Shown here piece after piece: positions 9,947-55,260 of a DNA stretch of 64,000 nt (its first letter is position 1; every line of letters begins with the position of its first letter). Made by a program: the position numbers and the translations under genes. Source of the DNA: Candidatus Wolframiiraptor gerlachensis. GTDB taxonomy: Archaea > Thermoproteota > Nitrososphaeria_A > Caldarchaeales > Wolframiiraptoraceae. The notes under the pieces were generated by a model that was not told the origin of the DNA, made no database searches, and worked only from the letters and a program-made list of their open reading frames with translations. The DNA lies in assembly GCA_021323375.2 (NCBI GenBank), contig JAJPCT020000016.1, forward strand, positions 62,001 through 126,000, written 5' to 3'.

Positions 9947-10330
9947 TTAATATTCATAACTCATAATATCAGCCATCATAAGAGGCTTGACACCATCTCC
10001 CGAGTCTTGAATCTCCATCAACACGTCCGGAACTGCCTCGATCGTCCTATCTTTTCTTTATTGCTTCTATTATGGAAATTCCATGGAAGCATGGGCGGAT
10101 TATCGATGAAAAGAACTTGAAGAACTTGATAAAAAAATAGACCCTACTACAACCTCAAGGAACCATTAAGGCTCATAGGTAATGATGATGGGGAAGAAGT
10201 TTATGAGAAGACCTATAAAATCTTTTGGGACAAAAGGAGCGTTGAAGAAACTATCAAATTATATTGTCGATAGGGTTACCACTCCATTTGCTGGTAGTAA
10301 GGTTGGGGATTTCTGAGATGAGATCGATTC
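9947..10330. other. Decayed coding fragments, no intact gene
   Basis: The reverse strand from about 10055 to 9947 carries a 35-codon open tail ending KPLMMADIMSYEY. The forward strand from about 10080 has short pieces in successive frames (MEIPWKHGRIIDEKNL, then EVYEKTYKIFWDKRSVEE). The pieces join if one or two bases are added or removed. None is recognised. The region has lower GC than its flanks and leads directly into the transposase remnant. Confidence 0.4.
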
Positions 10331-10359
10331 TGGGTGGAGGTGGAGGGTGATGAGGGTGA

Positions 10360-10539
10360 TATACTCGTAAGTTAAGATCACATGTTGCGGCTATTGTAGC
10401 AAATCTTTACGCGTATGTTAGAAGGAATGTAAGCGTTTCGGATGAAATTGCCAATGTTGCTGAGTGTATGTCCAAAAATCAGGCGATAGTTAAATTGAGG
10501 CTGACGACTTTGGAGGCGTTAAGAAGAGCATACCCATGA
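10360..10539 (+). pseudogene. C-terminal remnant of IS110-like transposase (copy 1)
   Basis: A 59-codon open stretch without a start codon reads YTRKLRSHVAAIVANLYAYV and ends LTTLEALRRAYP. It aligns by eye with the C-terminus of the intact transposase at 25831-26691 (KLRANLSNIAANIYLNYKR to RILKALKRA) and with the relic near 55000 (LRTHLTKLAASIYLNNKR). The catalytic domains are gone. The structured noncoding segment follows directly, as in the other two copies. Confidence 0.65.
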
Positions 10540-10566
10540 CAAAGCCGCTGGCCAGCAAGTTCTCGT

Positions 10567-10712
10567 AGCCATAAAGGCCAGCAAGCCAAGCCTTAAACCA
10601 TCCATGGATTCATAAAGATAGAAATCCATCCTCCATGGTGGCAGCTTCCGCCAGCTCTACTGGCCTTTATGGCTTTTAATACCCGCCGGCCAGTCCCACC
10701 CTCCATTTTTGC
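10567..10712 (+). ncRNA. Putative structured RNA at the 3' end of IS110-like copy 1
   Basis: AGCCATAAAGGCCAG (10567-10581) and its exact complement (10660-10674) make a 15-bp outer stem. Inside, ACCAT/ATGGT and ATGGATT/AATCCAT form an interrupted inner hairpin. ATGGTGG follows the inner hairpin, CGCCGGCCAG is at 10684-10693, and a T-rich tract (CATTTTTG) ends the unit. The same architecture occurs at 26693-26820 and 55134-55260. Expression and function are inferred. Confidence 0.5.
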
Positions 10713-24120: not shown

Positions 24121-24534
24121 TTACTTGAGTGGGACGTACATGCTGGATCTTGTCGCCCCCACTCCGGCTTTTCCATGCTTCACCTGTTTGCATGTTATCG
24201 CGAATTCTCCCAGCCTATGCCCTATCATCTCGGGCTTTATCTCAACCGGGACGAATTCCTTCCCATTGTATACGTGTATTGTTAAGCCGACCATCTCAGG
24301 CAGGATCACCATGTCCCTCGCATGTGTCTTGATAGGCTTCTTCGGCTTCTCACCCCTCTTCAGCATCTCATTCGCCTCTCTCACCTTCTCGAGAAGCCTT
24401 AGCTGGACGTGGTTCAGGCCGCGCATAAGGCTCCTCCTCATCCTACTTGGCAGTAGCTTTATGAACTGATCCATGCTCATCTGCCTAAGCTCATCCAGCG
24501 TGTAGCCTCTGTAGGTGAACTCCCGCCTTGATAT
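24121..24534 (-). CDS. rps19: Ribosomal protein S19 (uS19), apparent AUA start
   Basis: S19 features are clear: [50 protein letters not shown]. The first ATG (24480) would give 119 residues and lose the conserved N-terminus [16 protein letters not shown], which is encoded in frame upstream. Extending to the AUA codon at 24534 gives [10 protein letters not shown]. An AAGGTGA ribosome-binding site lies 5-6 bases before that AUA, and a stop sits just beyond. A non-canonical start or a sequencing error of AUG is implied. It lies 5 kb from rpl2, not next to it. Confidence 0.88.
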
Positions 24535-24608
24535 AGGGCTTCACCTTCCTTTTTATCAGCTGACATGTTAATAAAGATAATGGGGGTCTGCTAAGACGCT
24601 CATGTCCA

Positions 24609-24821
24609 TCAACCTACCTCCCAGAACCTCTTTCTACATGCTTCGCATACTACCTGAACAATCCGGCTATCTACTATGACCGCATAACTCCTAACCCTCT
24701 CCTTAAGCCCCCTCTTTGTTAAAGCTATAAGACTTCCACATAGATCACATACCGCCTCGTACCTCTCAATATGTAAGACCTCTCTGATCCTGCCTTTCTT
24801 ATCAACAGTCGTGATTATCAA
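24609..24821 (-). CDS. Small zinc-ribbon protein (70 aa)
   Basis: The 70 residues carry two CxxC pairs, EAVCDLCGSLIALTKRG and VVCEACRKRFWEV, which form a four-Cys zinc site. A frameshifted relative lies at 54395-54639 and a shorter fragment near 47640-47770. In both this locus and the 54-kb locus, the gene sits on the opposite strand just upstream of an IS110-like transposase. It may be a passenger or transcription-related zinc ribbon; function is unknown. Confidence 0.7.
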   Translation of the reverse strand: MIITTVDKKGRIREVLHIERYEAVCDLCGSLIALTKRGLKERVRSYAVIVDSRIVQVVCEACRKRFWEVG

Positions 24822-24895
24822 GAGGTCTTAAGGCGAATTCCTGAACCCTTGGGTCTCCATCAATAGGTGCTAGGATGATCATCCTAGCATCCATC

Positions 24896-25219
24896 CTAGA
24901 CCACTCCCACCACTTTATCCCCCTCTAGGATCACTGTCTCACCACCCCAGACACTCCTAACAAGGCTCTTGGTCTCCCTCATATTCTCACTTAAATACGC
25001 GGAGTCCCCATACTCGTTGAAGGCACTAATAGTGAAGATCTTAGACTTGGGGTCATAGACTACTGTAACGGCTATGCATCCGAAGCCCGGCCTGAACCTG
25101 CTCCTAAGCCTTCTTATCCGCCTATAACACTCCTCGTATACCTTATCATACGCCCGACACCTGACAAACAGGCCGTCTATGCCTTTTGGAAGGGGCTTCT
25201 CGGCTGGCCTGCCGCACAC
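24896..25219 (-). CDS. Hypothetical protein (107 aa)
   Basis: The frame starts at GTG (MCGRPAEKPLPKGIDGLFVR) and has a basic helical middle (YRRIRRLRSRFRPG). It ends in a beta-rich segment (VYDPKSKIFTISAFNEYGDS ... VILEGDKVVGVV). I do not recognise a family. It lies in the accessory stretch between rps19 and the IS110-like element and may belong to an integrated element. Confidence 0.45.
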   Translation of the reverse strand: MCGRPAEKPLPKGIDGLFVRCRAYDKVYEECYRRIRRLRSRFRPGFGCIAVTVVYDPKSKIFTISAFNEYGDSAYLSENMRETKSLVRSVWGGETVILEGDKVVGVV

Positions 25220-25221
25220 GT

Positions 25222-25446
25222 ATGCATGTTTTCGGCCTGCTGATACTGCTGACGATCCTAGCCGTCGCGCTGTACTCCTACCTGCTCATCTACGGGGCGA
25301 TTGCGGCATGAGGGCGTTGAAGAGGATTCTATCTAAGGGTCGCCGAGGCCGTCGGCGAGGCCCTGCCGTCGGGGATCATAGACCCCTAGATCCTCTGGTG
25401 GATCATCCTATCGCTAATGCTGCCATTTATTGCTGGCCGGAGTGAT
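25222..25446 (+). other. Broken small membrane-protein frames
   Basis: ATG at 25223 opens a 29-codon hydrophobic peptide (MHVFGLLILLTILAVALYSY). Further on, one frame reads EAVGEALPSGIIDP, meets TAG, then continues ILWWIILSLMLPFIAG. A tryptophan TGG changed to TAG would explain it. These look like decayed genes of a mobile element. Expression is doubtful. Confidence 0.3.
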
Positions 25447-25450
25447 GTGG

Positions 25451-25814
25451 ATGGCCGAGAAGGGATTTATAGTTTATGGAGGCTCCGACCTAAGGAGGCT
25501 GCTGAGGGATGTTGAGGATCGGTATGGCGGCGCGTTCGACGAGCTCGGGCCCGGGCGCCGCCCAGGACTTCAAGCATATGATCGACTGCGTTGACGGCTT
25601 TCTGGATCTCTTGGCGGATCCGAGGGCGGACTCCAGGGTCAAGCTGATAGACTATGCGAGGATCAGGGATGATGTCTTCGAGTTCTGCCGGTTCTACGCC
25701 GGGTGGCTGGGAAATCCATTGATGGAGAGGCTGAGGCATGAGATATATGAGCTGTTGGAGGAGGCCATAGAATGGTGGGGAGAGCAGGATGTCCTCGACA
25801 TCATGGGGTGCTGA
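25451..25814 (+). pseudogene. Frameshifted hypothetical gene upstream of the transposase
   Basis: From ATG 25451 the frame reads MAEKGFIVYGGSDLRRLL and goes on to AFDELGPG. A +1 shift in the GC-rich run near 25550 moves the frame to AAQDFKHMIDCVDGFLDLLA and an acidic helical C-terminus ending GEQDVLDIMGC. The combined product is about 120 residues. The family is not recognised. It ends 16 bases before the transposase start, which has its own GGAGGTGAT ribosome-binding site. Confidence 0.5.
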
Positions 25815-25830
25815 GGAGGAGGTGATATGA

Positions 25831-26691
25831 ATGGCCAGGGTCTATTATGTTGATACCGCCATTCCCAGCGACAGGAAGAAGAGAAGGAAGAATAAGACGC
25901 ATGTGGTCTTCGACGGGGATAGGACGTTTAAGGTGAATAGGCTGACAGAGCTGGAAGACGCCGGCGAGGTATTCATTGACACGTTATTCCCGGAGATCTA
26001 TGATGAGGTCGTGGAATTGTTGAGGAGGGGTGTTAGGGTGTATCTGCTGAAGGACGCCACCAAGCTGAAGAGGCTGAGAATGGAGAACAATTTGAAGAAG
26101 ACTGATGAGAATGATGCTATGCTACTTTCAAGGATTCCTCAATGCAGCTTCAAGCAGATCACATTCAAGGAAATGATACTGTTAAGACTAATCGAGGAGT
26201 ATGAGAGATATGTTGAGTGGCGGATGGTCATCCGGCGATGGTATCAAATCCACCCATTAAACTCCTTCAAAGAGTGTATTAGAGAACTCCGCTCCCTATG
26301 CGAGCGCCATGCCCGCAAGATTATTAGAGAAGTTAGGAATGATGAAAGCTATGGAACAATATATAGAGCGGCATGTGAAGCGCTGGGGATCGAGAATAGT
26401 GTTCATGTCGCGATATTAATAGTAAAGCTACCACTAAACTGGAAACTCGCCAAATTAAAGGGATTGCTGGGACTAACGCCACACAGCAAAAAACACAAAA
26501 AATATAACCATAAACTACGCGCAAATCTTTCAAACATTGCCGCGAATATTTACTTGAACTACAAGCGATTAAAGACTAAACCAGAGATTCTACAAGGACT
26601 CGAGAACCTTCCAATGAGGAAAACAATTTTTCGGTTAGAGATAAGGATACTGAAGGCATTGAAGAGAGCCAAAGTTGCCGGCGAGTGGTAA
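25831..26691 (+). CDS. IS110-like transposase (DEDD/serine recombinase), intact copy
   Basis: The 286 residues begin with a RuvC-like segment (YYVDTAI, first Asp), followed by LKKTDENDAMLLSRI. The latter corresponds to the KTDxxDA acidic motif of IS110 transposases. A helical linker covers about 110-200. The C-terminal Tnp part contains LKGLLGLTPHSKKHKKYNHK with a candidate catalytic Ser, then LRANLSNIAANIY. It is shorter than many IS110 enzymes (about 300-340). A GGAGGTGAT ribosome-binding site precedes it. Remnants of the same gene lie near 10.4 and 54.8 kb. Confidence 0.72.
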   Translation: MARVYYVDTAIPSDRKKRRKNKTHVVFDGDRTFKVNRLTELEDAGEVFIDTLFPEIYDEVVELLRRGVRVYLLKDATKLKRLRMENNLKKTDENDAMLLSRIPQCSFKQITFKEMILLRLIEEYERYVEWRMVIRRWYQIHPLNSFKECIRELRSLCERHARKIIREVRNDESYGTIYRAACEALGIENSVHVAILIVKLPLNWKLAKLKGLLGLTPHSKKHKKYNHKLRANLSNIAANIYLNYKRLKTKPEILQGLENLPMRKTIFRLEIRILKALKRAKVAGEW

Positions 26692-26816
26692 AAGCTACGC
26701 CAGTAGGTTGAGGTGAATTTCCGCCATAGACTTATAAGTCTATGGTGGTTGCGCGGGAGTTCCTACTGGCGTAGCTACTAGAACCGCCGGCCAGCCACCC
26801 CCTTCTCTCCCTTTTT
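25831..26816 (+). mobile_element. IS110-like insertion element with 3' structured region
   Basis: The unit is the transposase gene plus about 125 bp of noncoding sequence ending in CGCCGGCCAG and an oligo-T tract. The right end is fixed by comparison with two other copies. The left end cannot be placed, because the other copies are 5'-truncated and IS110 elements lack long terminal inverted repeats. It interrupts the region between rps19 and rpl2. Confidence 0.6.
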
Positions 26817-26820
26817 CCCC
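26693..26820 (+). ncRNA. Putative guide-type structured RNA 3' of the IS110-like transposase
   Basis: The stem AGCTACGCCAGTAGG (26693-26707) pairs perfectly with CCTACTGGCGTAGCT (26762-26776). Inside it, CCGCCATAGACTT pairs with AAGTCTATGGTGG, and the perfect 22-bp palindrome of this hairpin is at 26724-26745. Single-stranded flanks of roughly 13 and 16 bases lie between the two stems, giving a large internal loop. CGCCGGCCAG is at 26785-26794 and CTTTTTCC follows as a terminator. It starts right after the transposase stop codon. Confidence 0.6.
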
Positions 26821-26876
26821 ACCTAATGCATAAATGCTAATAGCAGTTGATACGTAGAAATAGTATATCTTAAAGA

Positions 26877-26968
26877 GGGCCGGTAGATCAACCAAGAGAG
26901 CTTCTAAGCCCCACCAAAACATCCACCTTACACATAGGAAGTCATAGGTTCAAATCCCGTCCAGTCCA
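26877..26968 (+). pseudogene. Degenerate tRNA-like sequence
   Basis: GGGCCGGTAGATCAACC at the start and AGGTTCAAATCCCGTCCAGT near the end copy the tRNA-Ala layout at 15174. The acceptor stem has one mismatch (C5-A68), the D-stem is broken and the T-stem has a mismatch. The middle is 19 bases too long, and if treated as an intron it still lacks U33. A TATA-like TATATCTTAAA precedes it. It is most likely a decayed tRNA or integration-site relic. Confidence 0.55.
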
Positions 26969-27153
26969 ATTTTAATCACCAGCCTACCCTATAATAAAAA
27001 GCTAAAGCTTTAGAAAATTCGCCCCCTCATTATTTTATCAAAGCTCATGTATGGCTAGAGTAAAAAAGATAACCAGAACTCCCTTGGCACAGGTCATTCT
27101 CAGCGAGCCCAAGATTTAAGGATATACAGCGCCCCCGGTGCTTTCCTAATGGC

Positions 27154-28110
27154 CTAGCTTGGGGCATCCTTCACCCCAGTTCTTCTCGAGAGTTGTGGGA
27201 GCATCTTCTCAACCGCCTTCACTACCAGCAGCGCTAGTATAGTCGAGAAGAGTGTTTGGCCGAAGACATCCCTTGCATAGGATATTATGGCGACTGGGAG
27301 CCCCTTTATGAAGACGTTTACGATGAAGTATATTGTCGCCATGTAAATGCCGCTCGCGAGGAGTATCGCCGCTTGCAGGGGCATACTTCTACCCTTACCG
27401 AGGCCTGCTATCATCCCCTCTCCCCCATGAGCTATTATCGTGATGAACCATCTCGGGTACCCTATTATCAGATCCGCTATCAGTGGGCCTATCGCGCCGA
27501 CGAGCCCTCCAACCCTAGACCCATAAAGGAGGGCTGCCGCGAATATTGCTGTATCGCCTATGTTCGTGTATCCGCCCGTAGGCGATGGGAAGAATGATCC
27601 GGTGAATGCCGTCAGCACGGCTGCCATTGCGGATAATGATGTCGCGGCCGCGAGCTCAACACTGGTAAACCTCAGGATCGGCTCTGCGCGGCCGAACCTT
27701 AAGATGATAGCCGCCTCGACTGCTAACATGATGATCGCGGGGGCTAGAAGCATGTCGCCGAGCATAGAAGATGGGTAATCGAAGGCGCGCGGTAGAATCG
27801 GCAATACAATCGTCGAGATGAGTGCTAGGATAGCAATATATCCACACCATTTAACACGCCTTCTGAGGAAGATGCTACTGGAAGAGATCGCGGCTAGGAT
27901 CGAGGTCGCTGAGAAAGCTAGGTAGAGCGGCACCCTGATCTTCTCCGCATCAGGCAGGGAGATCGCGGACAATATGTCGGAGACGCCGAGATGTTTCAAG
28001 ATTATTGAGAGCTGAATCCCTACGCTCGCCGCGATTAGAGACATGGTCAAGGCCATTATGATTATTATCGTCCATAAGATCCTCTTATCCAGCTCTAGTG
28101 TGGATTTCAT
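27154..28110 (-). CDS. ECF-transporter S-component-like membrane protein
   Basis: This 318-residue membrane protein has four or five N-terminal helices followed by a module of about 160 residues (AAATSLSAMAAVLTAFTGSF ... GPLIADLIIGYPRWFITII). The module resembles the S component family of energy-coupling factor transporters, which bind vitamins. The expected EcfA/EcfT genes are not adjacent. The ligand is unknown. Confidence 0.68.
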   Translation of the reverse strand: MKSTLELDKRILWTIIIIMALTMSLIAASVGIQLSIILKHLGVSDILSAISLPDAEKIRVPLYLAFSATSILAAISSSSIFLRRRVKWCGYIAILALISTIVLPILPRAFDYPSSMLGDMLLAPAIIMLAVEAAIILRFGRAEPILRFTSVELAAATSLSAMAAVLTAFTGSFFPSPTGGYTNIGDTAIFAAALLYGSRVGGLVGAIGPLIADLIIGYPRWFITIIAHGGEGMIAGLGKGRSMPLQAAILLASGIYMATIYFIVNVFIKGLPVAIISYARDVFGQTLFSTILALLVVKAVEKMLPQLSRRTGVKDAPS

Positions 28111-28207
28111 GCCCCAGCTACCTCAAGAAGTGTTTTTGCCGATATTTATCCGAAGCGTATGAAGCTCATGGTTAGTATTGTCGAGCGCGCTTCTGGTATA
28201 GGGGCGA

Positions 28208-29368
28208 TCATGTGCCTAGGATTCTTACAAGCCTGCTCGCGAGAATCACTGCTATGGCCGGGTAGATGCATAAGCTCGCAAATGCCGTGGAAAGCGGTAT
28301 CGCATTGAGTAGTAGGGCTATGATGATGGGTCCGAAGAGGTTTCCAACATCCCATGATGTCAGGTATATCGAGTTACCTAGTATCCTGAGGTTCGGTCTT
28401 ACGACATGGGCTGTTATCGTCGCGGTTAATGGAAATGTGAGGCCATGCGCCATCGCGATGAGGTAGAGCCCGATTATGAAGAGCAGCGTGCATGGTGCTA
28501 GGCCGGCGATCAGCGCGCCGATGGCGCAGGAGGCCATAGAGGCCTCGAGAAACCTGACAATATTGATCCTGCCCATGTATCTCGATAATATTGTCCGGGT
28601 TATGTATGTGATCAGGTAGTAGCCAGTGAATATTGCTAGGATGAGATGATCTGGGATTCCAAGCTCTATGCTCGCCTTCAACGGGCCATATGCGAAAATC
28701 CCTCCAATAGCTATTGAGTAGAGGAGGTATAGGAGTGTTGGGAGGAGGAGCGGCTCTCTGAGAACATCCTTGATCATGGATGATGTTATCTTCGAGTAAT
28801 ATGATTCCTCCCAGAGCGGCGGCCTAGTCTTTGCGAATACCGTTCCGAGGAGGACTGCGATCAAGCTGATCAACGCAGCGGAGGCCATGAGCATCCTCAG
28901 ATCCATTAGGTAGCTAAGGGCCACGCCGATTGCTGGCCCAGTCCAGAGGCCGAGAGCAACATAGGCAGTGTAATCCGCAACCGACTTCCGAGCCTCCTCC
29001 GGCGCCATTATCAGGCTTGCGAGCGAGAGAGTTAAGGTGTAGTTCAGGGCGAATGTAACTCCCTGCAGCACCCTGAAGACCCCCAGCATCCAAGATGTCG
29101 TGCTGATCGCGTAGCCGAGCAGGGCCACGGTATTCAACGTTATCCCGAGGACAAGTATCCTCAGCGCATTCCTCCTCACCGCAAGCATTGACGCAGGTAT
29201 CCTGCTGAGCGCGGAGGCCACTGCCGCTAAGGATACCAGTATTCCGACCTCGCTCTCCGACGCCCCTAGAACCGAGTATATGTAGACGGGCAAGATCGGG
29301 CCAATAATCTCATATGAGAGGGTAAACGTGAACGTTGTGTAATTGAGGAGCCTTTGATGCCATCTCAT
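28208..29368 (-). CDS. Major facilitator superfamily transporter
   Basis: The 386 residues are arranged as about twelve hydrophobic helices in two halves, starting with TFTFTLSYEIIGPILPVYIY. The loop between helices 2 and 3 has RIPASMLAVRRNALRI, close to the MFS motif A region. A cytosolic break follows helix 6 (KTRPPLWEESYYS). It lies between rpl2 and the ECF-like gene, where a ribosomal operon would normally continue. The substrate is unknown. Confidence 0.83.
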   Translation of the reverse strand: MRWHQRLLNYTTFTFTLSYEIIGPILPVYIYSVLGASESEVGILVSLAAVASALSRIPASMLAVRRNALRILVLGITLNTVALLGYAISTTSWMLGVFRVLQGVTFALNYTLTLSLASLIMAPEEARKSVADYTAYVALGLWTGPAIGVALSYLMDLRMLMASAALISLIAVLLGTVFAKTRPPLWEESYYSKITSSMIKDVLREPLLLPTLLYLLYSIAIGGIFAYGPLKASIELGIPDHLILAIFTGYYLITYITRTILSRYMGRINIVRFLEASMASCAIGALIAGLAPCTLLFIIGLYLIAMAHGLTFPLTATITAHVVRPNLRILGNSIYLTSWDVGNLFGPIIIALLLNAIPLSTAFASLCIYPAIAVILASRLVRILGT

Positions 29369-29433
29369 AATAGGTCGGGACTGATATCCTTAATATCCCC
29401 GATAATAAACCTTGAAGAATGGAGAATTGGGCA

Positions 29434-30159
29434 CTACTTCTTCTTCCTGCCGGTTCTCCTTGCCGCGATGTAGCCAACCTTTCTCCCAGGCGGCGCGTTT
29501 CTAGACACCGTCTCAGGTCTTCCAAGCTTCTTCCGAGTTCCACCGAATGGATGGTATGCGGCGGCCATCGCGACACCGCGGACCCTCGGATACGTTGCAA
29601 CTCTATGTTTCGCCACCATCCAGTGATGCTTCTTACCAGCCTTTAGGAAGGGCTTATCCCGTATCCCCCCGCCTGCGACAACACCTATCATCGCGAGACA
29701 CTTAGAGCTTAGCTCTATAACCTTCTTCGATGGCAGCGAGACTATCGTCCTATCACCAAGCTGTGATGTGACGGTCGCGTATGTCCCGGGCGCTCGGACG
29801 AGCTTGCCACCATCCCCTGGCTTATGCTCTATCATCGAGACCTCCGTTCCCTCGGGGATCTTGGCTAGCGGAAGGATGTTGCCCGGAGCTATCGTCGCCT
29901 GCTCGCCCATCTCGATAACCTGGCCCACATACATCCCCTCAACAGCCACGACCGGGAAAGTCTCGCCATTCTCCAAGGCGATTAGGGCTACTGGAGCGCC
30001 CCTACCGGGATCATGATCCAGCTCAACCACCCTGCCGAGCAGGAGCCCAGACTGCGAGATTAGCTGAGACGGGTAGCCGACGGCATACTTCCGCCTAAGC
30101 GATGCCCTGAAAGTCGGCGAACCCCTACCCAGCCTCTGAGCCCTAATCCGCTTACCCAT
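29434..30159 (-). CDS. rpl2: Ribosomal protein L2 (uL2)
   Basis: This 241-residue protein has uL2 features: MGKRIRAQRLGRGSPTFRAS, the OB/SH3-like middle (VVELDHDPGRGAPVALIALE) and the C-terminal VRGVAMAAAYHPFGGTRKKL near the peptidyl-transferase centre. A 238-bp gap separates it from rpl23. That gap holds an AT-rich TATA-like stretch (about 30208-30222) that may give rpl2 its own promoter. rps19 does not follow. Confidence 0.97.
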   Translation of the reverse strand: MGKRIRAQRLGRGSPTFRASLRRKYAVGYPSQLISQSGLLLGRVVELDHDPGRGAPVALIALENGETFPVVAVEGMYVGQVIEMGEQATIAPGNILPLAKIPEGTEVSMIEHKPGDGGKLVRAPGTYATVTSQLGDRTIVSLPSKKVIELSSKCLAMIGVVAGGGIRDKPFLKAGKKHHWMVAKHRVATYPRVRGVAMAAAYHPFGGTRKKLGRPETVSRNAPPGRKVGYIAARRTGRKKK

Positions 30160-54699: not shown

Positions 54700-55132
54700 T
54701 TGAGAAGTCTGATGAGAGTTTGAGAATCCTCGATTATGGCCGCAAGATAATCGAGGAGGTTATGAGTGATAAGTATTATGCGGCGATATACAGGATAGCA
54801 TGCGAGGAGCTTAAGCTCAAGGATAGCGTTGAAGTTGCAATATCGGTGGTAAGGTTACCATTAAACTGGAAGCTTAGCAGGCTTAGAGGTTTGCTGGGCC
54901 TGACGCCGCACAAGGGGAAAAATATAATCACAAGTTGCGTACACATTTGACAAAACTCGCGGCATCAATCTATCTCAATAATAAACGATATGGAATCGGA
55001 ACGGGGCTCCTTGAAGGCATAAACTGCATGCCGTGCAGTAAAACGCTCTATAAATTACAACAACTAAGAATACTAAAGATATTGAAGAGGGCATGGCAGC
55101 AGAGACGACGTATGCTGGCCGGCGGGCAGTAA
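54700..55132 (+). pseudogene. IS110-like transposase remnant (copy 3)
   Basis: Two frames cover the C-terminal half. The first gives ILDYGRKIIEEVMSDKYYAA, then VVRLPLNWKLSRLRGLLGLT. The second gives LRTHLTKLAASIYLNNKRYG to LRILKILKRAW. Both align with residues about 150-280 of the intact enzyme at 25831. The N-terminal catalytic domain is missing and a frameshift lies near 54925. The structured noncoding end that follows is preserved. Confidence 0.75.
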
Positions 55133-55133
55133 A

Positions 55134-55260
55134 AGCCGGAGAGCCGGTGGCAGTGAGACACTACCCGCCACGGGATCATCCCGTGGTGGCTCCTCAGATA
55201 ATCCCGCCGGCCGGCTACGACGGCTCGCCGGCCAGCCCCACCCCTAACCCTTTTTCCATC
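55134..55260 (+). ncRNA. Putative structured RNA at the 3' end of IS110-like copy 3
   Basis: Two bases after the transposase-frame stop, an outer stem (AGCCGG with CCGGCT, imperfectly extended) encloses the hairpin CCGCCACGGGAT-C-ATCCCGTGGTGG (perfect 19-base core at 55168-55186). TGGTGG follows the hairpin, CGCCGGCCAG is at 55226-55235, and an oligo-T tract (CCTTTTTCC) ends it. The layout matches the two other copies although the stem sequences differ. Confidence 0.5.

Follow-up and report, generated by a model that had tools for sequence, protein, structure and literature searches.

We identified, in a 64,000-nucleotide stretch of the Candidatus Wolframiiraptor gerlachensis genome (contig JAJPCT020000016.1, positions 62,001 to 126,000; hereafter the window), a mobile element of 2551 bp (24525–27075, + strand) that encodes a 286-residue effector (25831–26691, +) and, at the 3′ end of this gene, a structured RNA with two hypervariable loop strands. 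This is very probably the target-guide RNA of an archaeal mobile element, whose guided insertion occurs at the site specified by the loops and leaves a target repeat of up to 8 bp. The reading is based on comparison between genomes, specifically on the structure of the copies, covariation of the RNA stems, empty sites in sister species, matches between guides and sites, target repeats, and the absence of both a serine motif and conserved element ends. We infer in addition that the effector binds the RNA, that its RuvC-like DEDD site cuts the two target strands about 8 nt apart, and that element DNA is joined into this break.

The effector stop codon occupies positions 26689–26691, and the main stem of the RNA, P2, begins at 26693 (26693–26707 pairing perfectly with 26762–26776 over 15 bp, +). 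P2 encloses an inner hairpin, P3 (26722–26748, +), and the two strands of an internal loop, namely loop 1 (26708–26721, +; TTGAGGTGAATTTC) and loop 2 (26749–26761, +; TTGCGCGGGAGTT). An earlier reading of the window from sequence alone (the sequence-only reading) had placed nested stems with an inner hairpin one base after the transposase stop, with which these coordinates and the folding of the window copy agree (-52 kcal/mol, z = -3.8, 1 of 200 shuffles equally good). It had also taken CGCCGGCCAG as the 3′ tail of the RNA; this segment is rather the 3′ arm (26783–26794) of a third, outermost stem, P1, whose 5′ arm, TTGCCGGCG (26675–26686, +), lies in the last effector codons. The guide RNA gene, with three nested stems, spans approximately 26675–26794 (+), is longer than first described and overlaps the end of the effector coding sequence (CDS). 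An early suspicion that GGCTGGCC and GGCCAGCC were terminal inverted repeats was rejected, as these correspond to the RNA's own outer stem. An Rfam scan of the window returned tRNA only, with no RNA family at gathering score for the guide RNA.

Approximately 18 copies or fragments of the effector are present in the genome, mostly 40–60% identical to the window copy, and the same RNA lies 3′ of the effector in nearly all copies with a readable 3′ end. Three copies of the RNA fall within the window, as had been proposed: that described above and those of copies W54 (55115–55235, +) and W10 (10547–10693, -). Across 19 copies, 22 aligned stem pairs were paired in 95.9% of cases, and pairing dropped to 22–41% when the partners were slid by 1–3 columns; two-sided compensatory cells numbered 41, against 15 in shuffles. 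Only these 22 safe pairs were counted, since the alignment of the inner main stem is imperfect between subfamilies. The stem covariation that the sequence-only reading had suggested looking for in a wider set of copies is thus present. While the stems covary, both internal-loop strands (~14 nt each) are hypervariable and differ in every copy. A long nested hairpin is also found at the same place in more distant members, from other families of the order. The proximal internal loop of the RNA is short and nearly invariant, whereas the element ends vary; on these grounds we rejected it as a donor-reading loop and consider a role in protein binding more likely. Donor reading had also been suggested for the guide-bearing internal loop, for which we found neither conserved element ends nor a donor match.

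The window element is inserted between rps19 (24121–24480) and the transporter genes that come after rpl2 in the genus. These genes and rps19 are joined without the element in three sister species (sisters L104, L102 and L103 are uninterrupted here), and the breakpoints define the element as 24525–27075, flanked by two copies of the 8-bp target repeat GAACTCCC (24517–24524 and 27076–27083). Element-free orthologous sites in sister species were identified for ten copies (the window copy, C1c, C4, C10, C22a, C3, C7, C25, C16b and C5), with small gaps parting the two flanks at some of these loci. Elements with both ends placed measure 1184 to 2551 bp, and the shortest, C4 (1184 bp), contains little besides the effector and the RNA.

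The guides were compared with 11 sites, comprising the sister empty sites of these ten copies and the rejoined flanks of an element in Wolframiiraptor sinensis. Guides matched their empty sites with a permutation z of 6.9 (0 of 20000 permutations), and the element's own RNA ranked first of 25 at 6 of the 11 sites. A loop-shuffle test gave p < 0.001 at the same six, with 16–24 matching positions against 9–10 expected, and a combined p = 2e-12 over all 11. Flank tests in the expected strand sense gave z = 4.9, 4.7 and 3.9, and downstream matches occurred in that sense only. The comparison of loops with the flanks of insertions in related genomes, which had been put forward as a check, thus yields own-site matches, and the internal loop is borne out as a target-reading segment. 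Together with the copies and their covariation, these matches uphold the central proposal, namely a guide RNA located 3′ of the gene for an archaeal IS110-like effector.

At several sites the correspondence is exact. At the C22a site, the intact sequence of the sister, TTATGGCAGGAAACGCTAATA, is spelled by loop 2 together with the complement of loop 1, and equivalent cases are C4 (GGGAAATAGGTTTAAGCCT), C1c (CTTAGCCGAGCTTCTTTCT), C10 (TTTGAAAGTAGCCATAGTT) and G003a (CAACGGCGGGCTCA, inside tRNA-Leu). The W. sinensis element interrupts a tRNA-Leu gene, both halves of which are spelled by the loops. For the window copy, loop 1, the putative guide for the left half-site, shares AGGTGAA with the left flank AGGTGAACTCC, the remainder matching by U-G wobble, and AACTCCC of the reverse complement of loop 2, the putative guide for the right half-site, matches the right flank. 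Several copies have tRNAs or pieces of tRNAs nearby, and in G003a, G001a and G001b the guides correspond to tRNA sequence. tRNA genes as a general target were nevertheless rejected, because most confirmed targets are not tRNA.

Several results weigh against guided insertion as described here. The match is weak or absent at 5 of the 11 sites (C5, C25, C16b, C3 and the window copy), and that of the window copy itself is moderate (12 points, p = 0.06). For distant members, testing of the guides gave p = 0.03, which is suggestive only. The upstream flank test for loop 2 (nearest 400 nt) was positive too (z = 3.1), although this stretch lies inside the elements. The wrong-sense columns of the permutation test are an invalid strand control owing to the overlapping halves, and the loop-shuffle test replaces them. 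The target repeat is exactly 8 of 8 in two copies only, being degraded or not definable in others. Finally, the first aspartate of the DxxD pair in the effector is lost in some distant members, a point against nuclease action being general in the group.

The target repeats straddle the junction between the two guides and comprise GAACTCCC in the window copy (8/8), ATAGGTTT in C4 (8/8) and C(C/G)GAGCTT in C1c (7/8). Relative to guides and target, the element adopts one orientation in C4, C1c, C10 and C22a and the other in the window copy (W26), C7 and G003a. Among the ends of up to 8 copies, similarity was only slightly above that of shuffled controls, and subterminal inverted repeats scored at control level.

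The effector combines a RuvC-like DEDD domain, a coiled coil and a Nop/Tnp-like C-terminal domain. It scores 15.4 bits against PF01548 (DEDD_Tnp_IS110; cut-off 29) and 11.7 against the NCBIfam IS110 model (cut-off 140). Transposase_20 (PF02371) has no match in the effector and none genome-wide, in a genome that is ~89% complete, and the G--P----SG serine motif is missing with its surrounding segment in all 22 aligned members. The RuvC-like acidic motifs are conserved in near relatives. Hidden Markov model (HMM)-HMM comparison with canonical IS110 proteins of the order gave no significant alignment, and a PDB sequence search with the effector profile returned nothing significant; the fold search alone gave matches. 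With an AlphaFold model of the effector (predicted local distance difference test score, pLDDT, 90), the best PDB matches were ISCro4, TasR and IS621, all at a template modelling (TM) score of ~0.6 (TasR 9mty, E = 1.3e-6). Separately, almost every member retains Tyr225, the tyrosine of a YN/YS motif close to where the serine segment has been lost.

TasR, directed by tandem 9-nt spacers, has been reported to leave 8-nt 3′ overhangs on cutting (PMC12045711). These overhangs, the repeats across the guide junction and the presence of both orientations suggest a staggered RNA-guided break followed by insertion. The 3′ end of the effector's own transcript would yield the RNA that the effector binds. 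In the target, one guide would pair with the top strand over the right half, and its partner with the bottom strand over the left half, at ~9–11 nt each; at the target centre the guides would adjoin or share a few bases. The RuvC-like DEDD site may make a staggered break about 8 nt apart, as published for TIGR-TasR, into which the element DNA would be joined in either orientation, with a target repeat (up to 8 bp) spanning the junction of the guides as the outcome. Taken together, the lack of conserved ends and inverted repeats, the two orientations and the target repeats resemble the 8-nt staggered cut of TasR more than serine recombination.

An ordinary IS1111-type insertion sequence (IS), with a serine recombinase whose bridge or seek RNA reads both target and donor and with the 8-bp repeats as an element-borne core, is an improbable account of these loci. 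Elements of the IS110/IS1111 group, which carry a seekRNA or bridge RNA (PMC11187229, PMC11208160), have been reported as orientation-specific and without target duplication, and their apparent duplications have been explained as one copy that belongs to the IS. The latter explanation could be extended to our repeats, but the shared 8 bp differ between copies and are identical to the target at each site. Our element resembles the group in its DEDD RuvC-like protein and element-borne RNA, in the fold shared with IS621 and ISCro4, and in two short, overlapping guides that read opposite target strands; the RNA position 3′ of the gene and the guide order are those of IS1111 seekRNAs. It differs in lacking the SG motif (0 of 22 aligned members, segment deleted), any PF02371 match in the genome, inverted repeats and conserved ends, in its insertion in both orientations, in target repeats of up to 8 bp, in an RNA that has one guide-bearing loop and no recognisable donor loop and overlaps the CDS, and in its occurrence, among the genomes searched, in Caldarchaeales only. 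Of the IS1111-type assignment made in the sequence-only reading, the 3′ RNA position and the guide order therefore stand; the scores below the Pfam and NCBIfam cut-offs, the missing SG motif, Transposase_20 and inverted repeats, the two orientations and the repeats speak against the remainder. Plain IS110/IS1111 membership was not accepted because three defining features failed, and the element looks like a variant within the IS110/TIGR superfamily.

We regard it as rather unlikely that the effector is an RNA-guided nuclease for homing or persistence at the empty site, in the manner of TnpB or a homing endonuclease, and that another enzyme moves the element. The absent serine motif, the TasR-like fold and the 8-nt geometry would suit a nuclease, as would the destruction of the guide target by insertion, and several copies carry small extra open reading frames (ORFs). 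However, no other transposase was recognised inside the elements, and C4 has little room for one beyond effector and RNA in its 1184 bp. TnpB of the IS200/IS605 and IS607 elements acts with an omega RNA that likewise lies at the 3′ end of a RuvC-type gene and has a guide matching the element site. There, the guide is the flanking DNA itself, in contrast to the internal two-part guides described here, and the protein is unrelated in domain order. Our guides lie ~0.1–0.5 kb from one junction and 1–2 kb from the other, which indicates that, unlike those of TnpB RNAs, they are more than copies of the flanks. It is scarcely credible that the RNA serves the transposase as a terminator or regulatory hairpin and that the loop-site matches are coincidental: its position at the 3′ end of the gene, followed by oligo-T, would fit such a role, but the permutation and loop-shuffle tests contradict it, as do the six sites with 16–24 matching positions where 9–10 are expected and the hypervariable loops between covarying stems.

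A further close comparison is with TIGR-TasR, which shares the RuvC and Nop-like fold; its tandem ~9-nt guides on opposite strands and its 8-nt stagger agree with the guide arrangement and the 8-bp repeats of our element, which may be cut in a similar way. TIGR-Tas systems contain an array of repeat-spacer units that is processed to 36-nt RNAs. No TIGR array was present in the inspected loci of the new element, which has a single three-stem RNA per effector; also unlike TIGR-TasR, the locus is a dispersed mobile element and the target is its own insertion site. As judged from its sequence, the element would work like a seekRNA-guided element with TasR-like geometry. We tentatively suggest, as a possibility somewhat short of an even chance, a separate class of RNA-guided transposon with a serine-less RuvC-Nop effector, a two-part guide, an 8-nt staggered break at an 18–20 bp site, target duplication, insertion in either orientation and no defined ends, which would stand, as a mobile form, midway between IS110 recombinases and the TIGR-TasR nucleases. 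We found no earlier account of it in the literature searched, which covered few subscription journals and no preprints.

The IS110-type elements known so far use serine-based, RNA-guided recombination for their movement, whereas the biology of the guided nuclease TasR is unclear. A serine-less TasR-like effector in a mobile element with confirmed guide-site matches would link these systems and would be a case of RNA-guided insertion with target repeats left behind. It provides natural guide-target pairs and a very small programmable system (~286 residues and 120 nt), presumably heat-stable, and prompts one to ask how the many copies of a single genome acquire different, well-matched guides.

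Relatives were identified in 17 of 44 Caldarchaeales genomes; elsewhere in the phylum, a search of ~354 genomes gave none, nor did the viral contigs searched. The relatives that bear a name come from W. sinensis, Geocrenenecus arthurdayi and an archaeon labelled Nitrososphaerales. The element locus of the W. sinensis record recurs in G003, a genome listed in the genus of the window genome, which places the two in one genus. Many relatives are located at contig ends, where the sequence breaks off immediately 5′ of the effector, suggestive of a high-identity repeat (L043, L045, L058–L060 and L069–L075).

Besides the effector, the window element contains a small CxxC...CxxC zinc-ribbon-like ORF (24609–24821, -) with homologues in other copies, a 107-residue ORF (24896–25219, -) whose DNA is 77% homologous to copy C7, and a small ORF directly upstream of the effector (25509–25814, +) with similar ORFs in C3 and C7; neither of the latter two has a Pfam match. 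A tRNA 3′-end fragment, GGTTCAAATCCCGTCCAGTCC, lies near the right end of the element (~26940–26968) and was perhaps captured from an earlier site. In W54, a decayed effector (54735–55093, +) precedes the guide RNA, and the reverse complement of loop 2 is present downstream, at 126 nt from the main stem. In W10 (10080–10693), the RNA cassette is inverted relative to its own decayed effector (~10080–10540, +), with the arms of its own outer stem on either side of it; read in the inverted direction, its loops correspond to both flanks.

Some further observations concern individual insertion sites. The right end of the W. sinensis element (L076/L046) supplies a different 5′ half of tRNA-Leu and seems to restore a complete tRNA gene. 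Next to C17 (L036), the adjacent tRNA gene is inverted relative to both sisters (L122 and L123), and the C17 loops resemble parts of the sister tRNAs. At the sister site of C4 (L085 of G001, compared with L034 of C4), a few extra bases resemble the right end of the element, in the manner of an excision footprint. Several members of the genus have a major facilitator superfamily (MFS) transporter and a second membrane transporter between the ribosomal genes rpl2 and rps19 (24121–30159 in the window).
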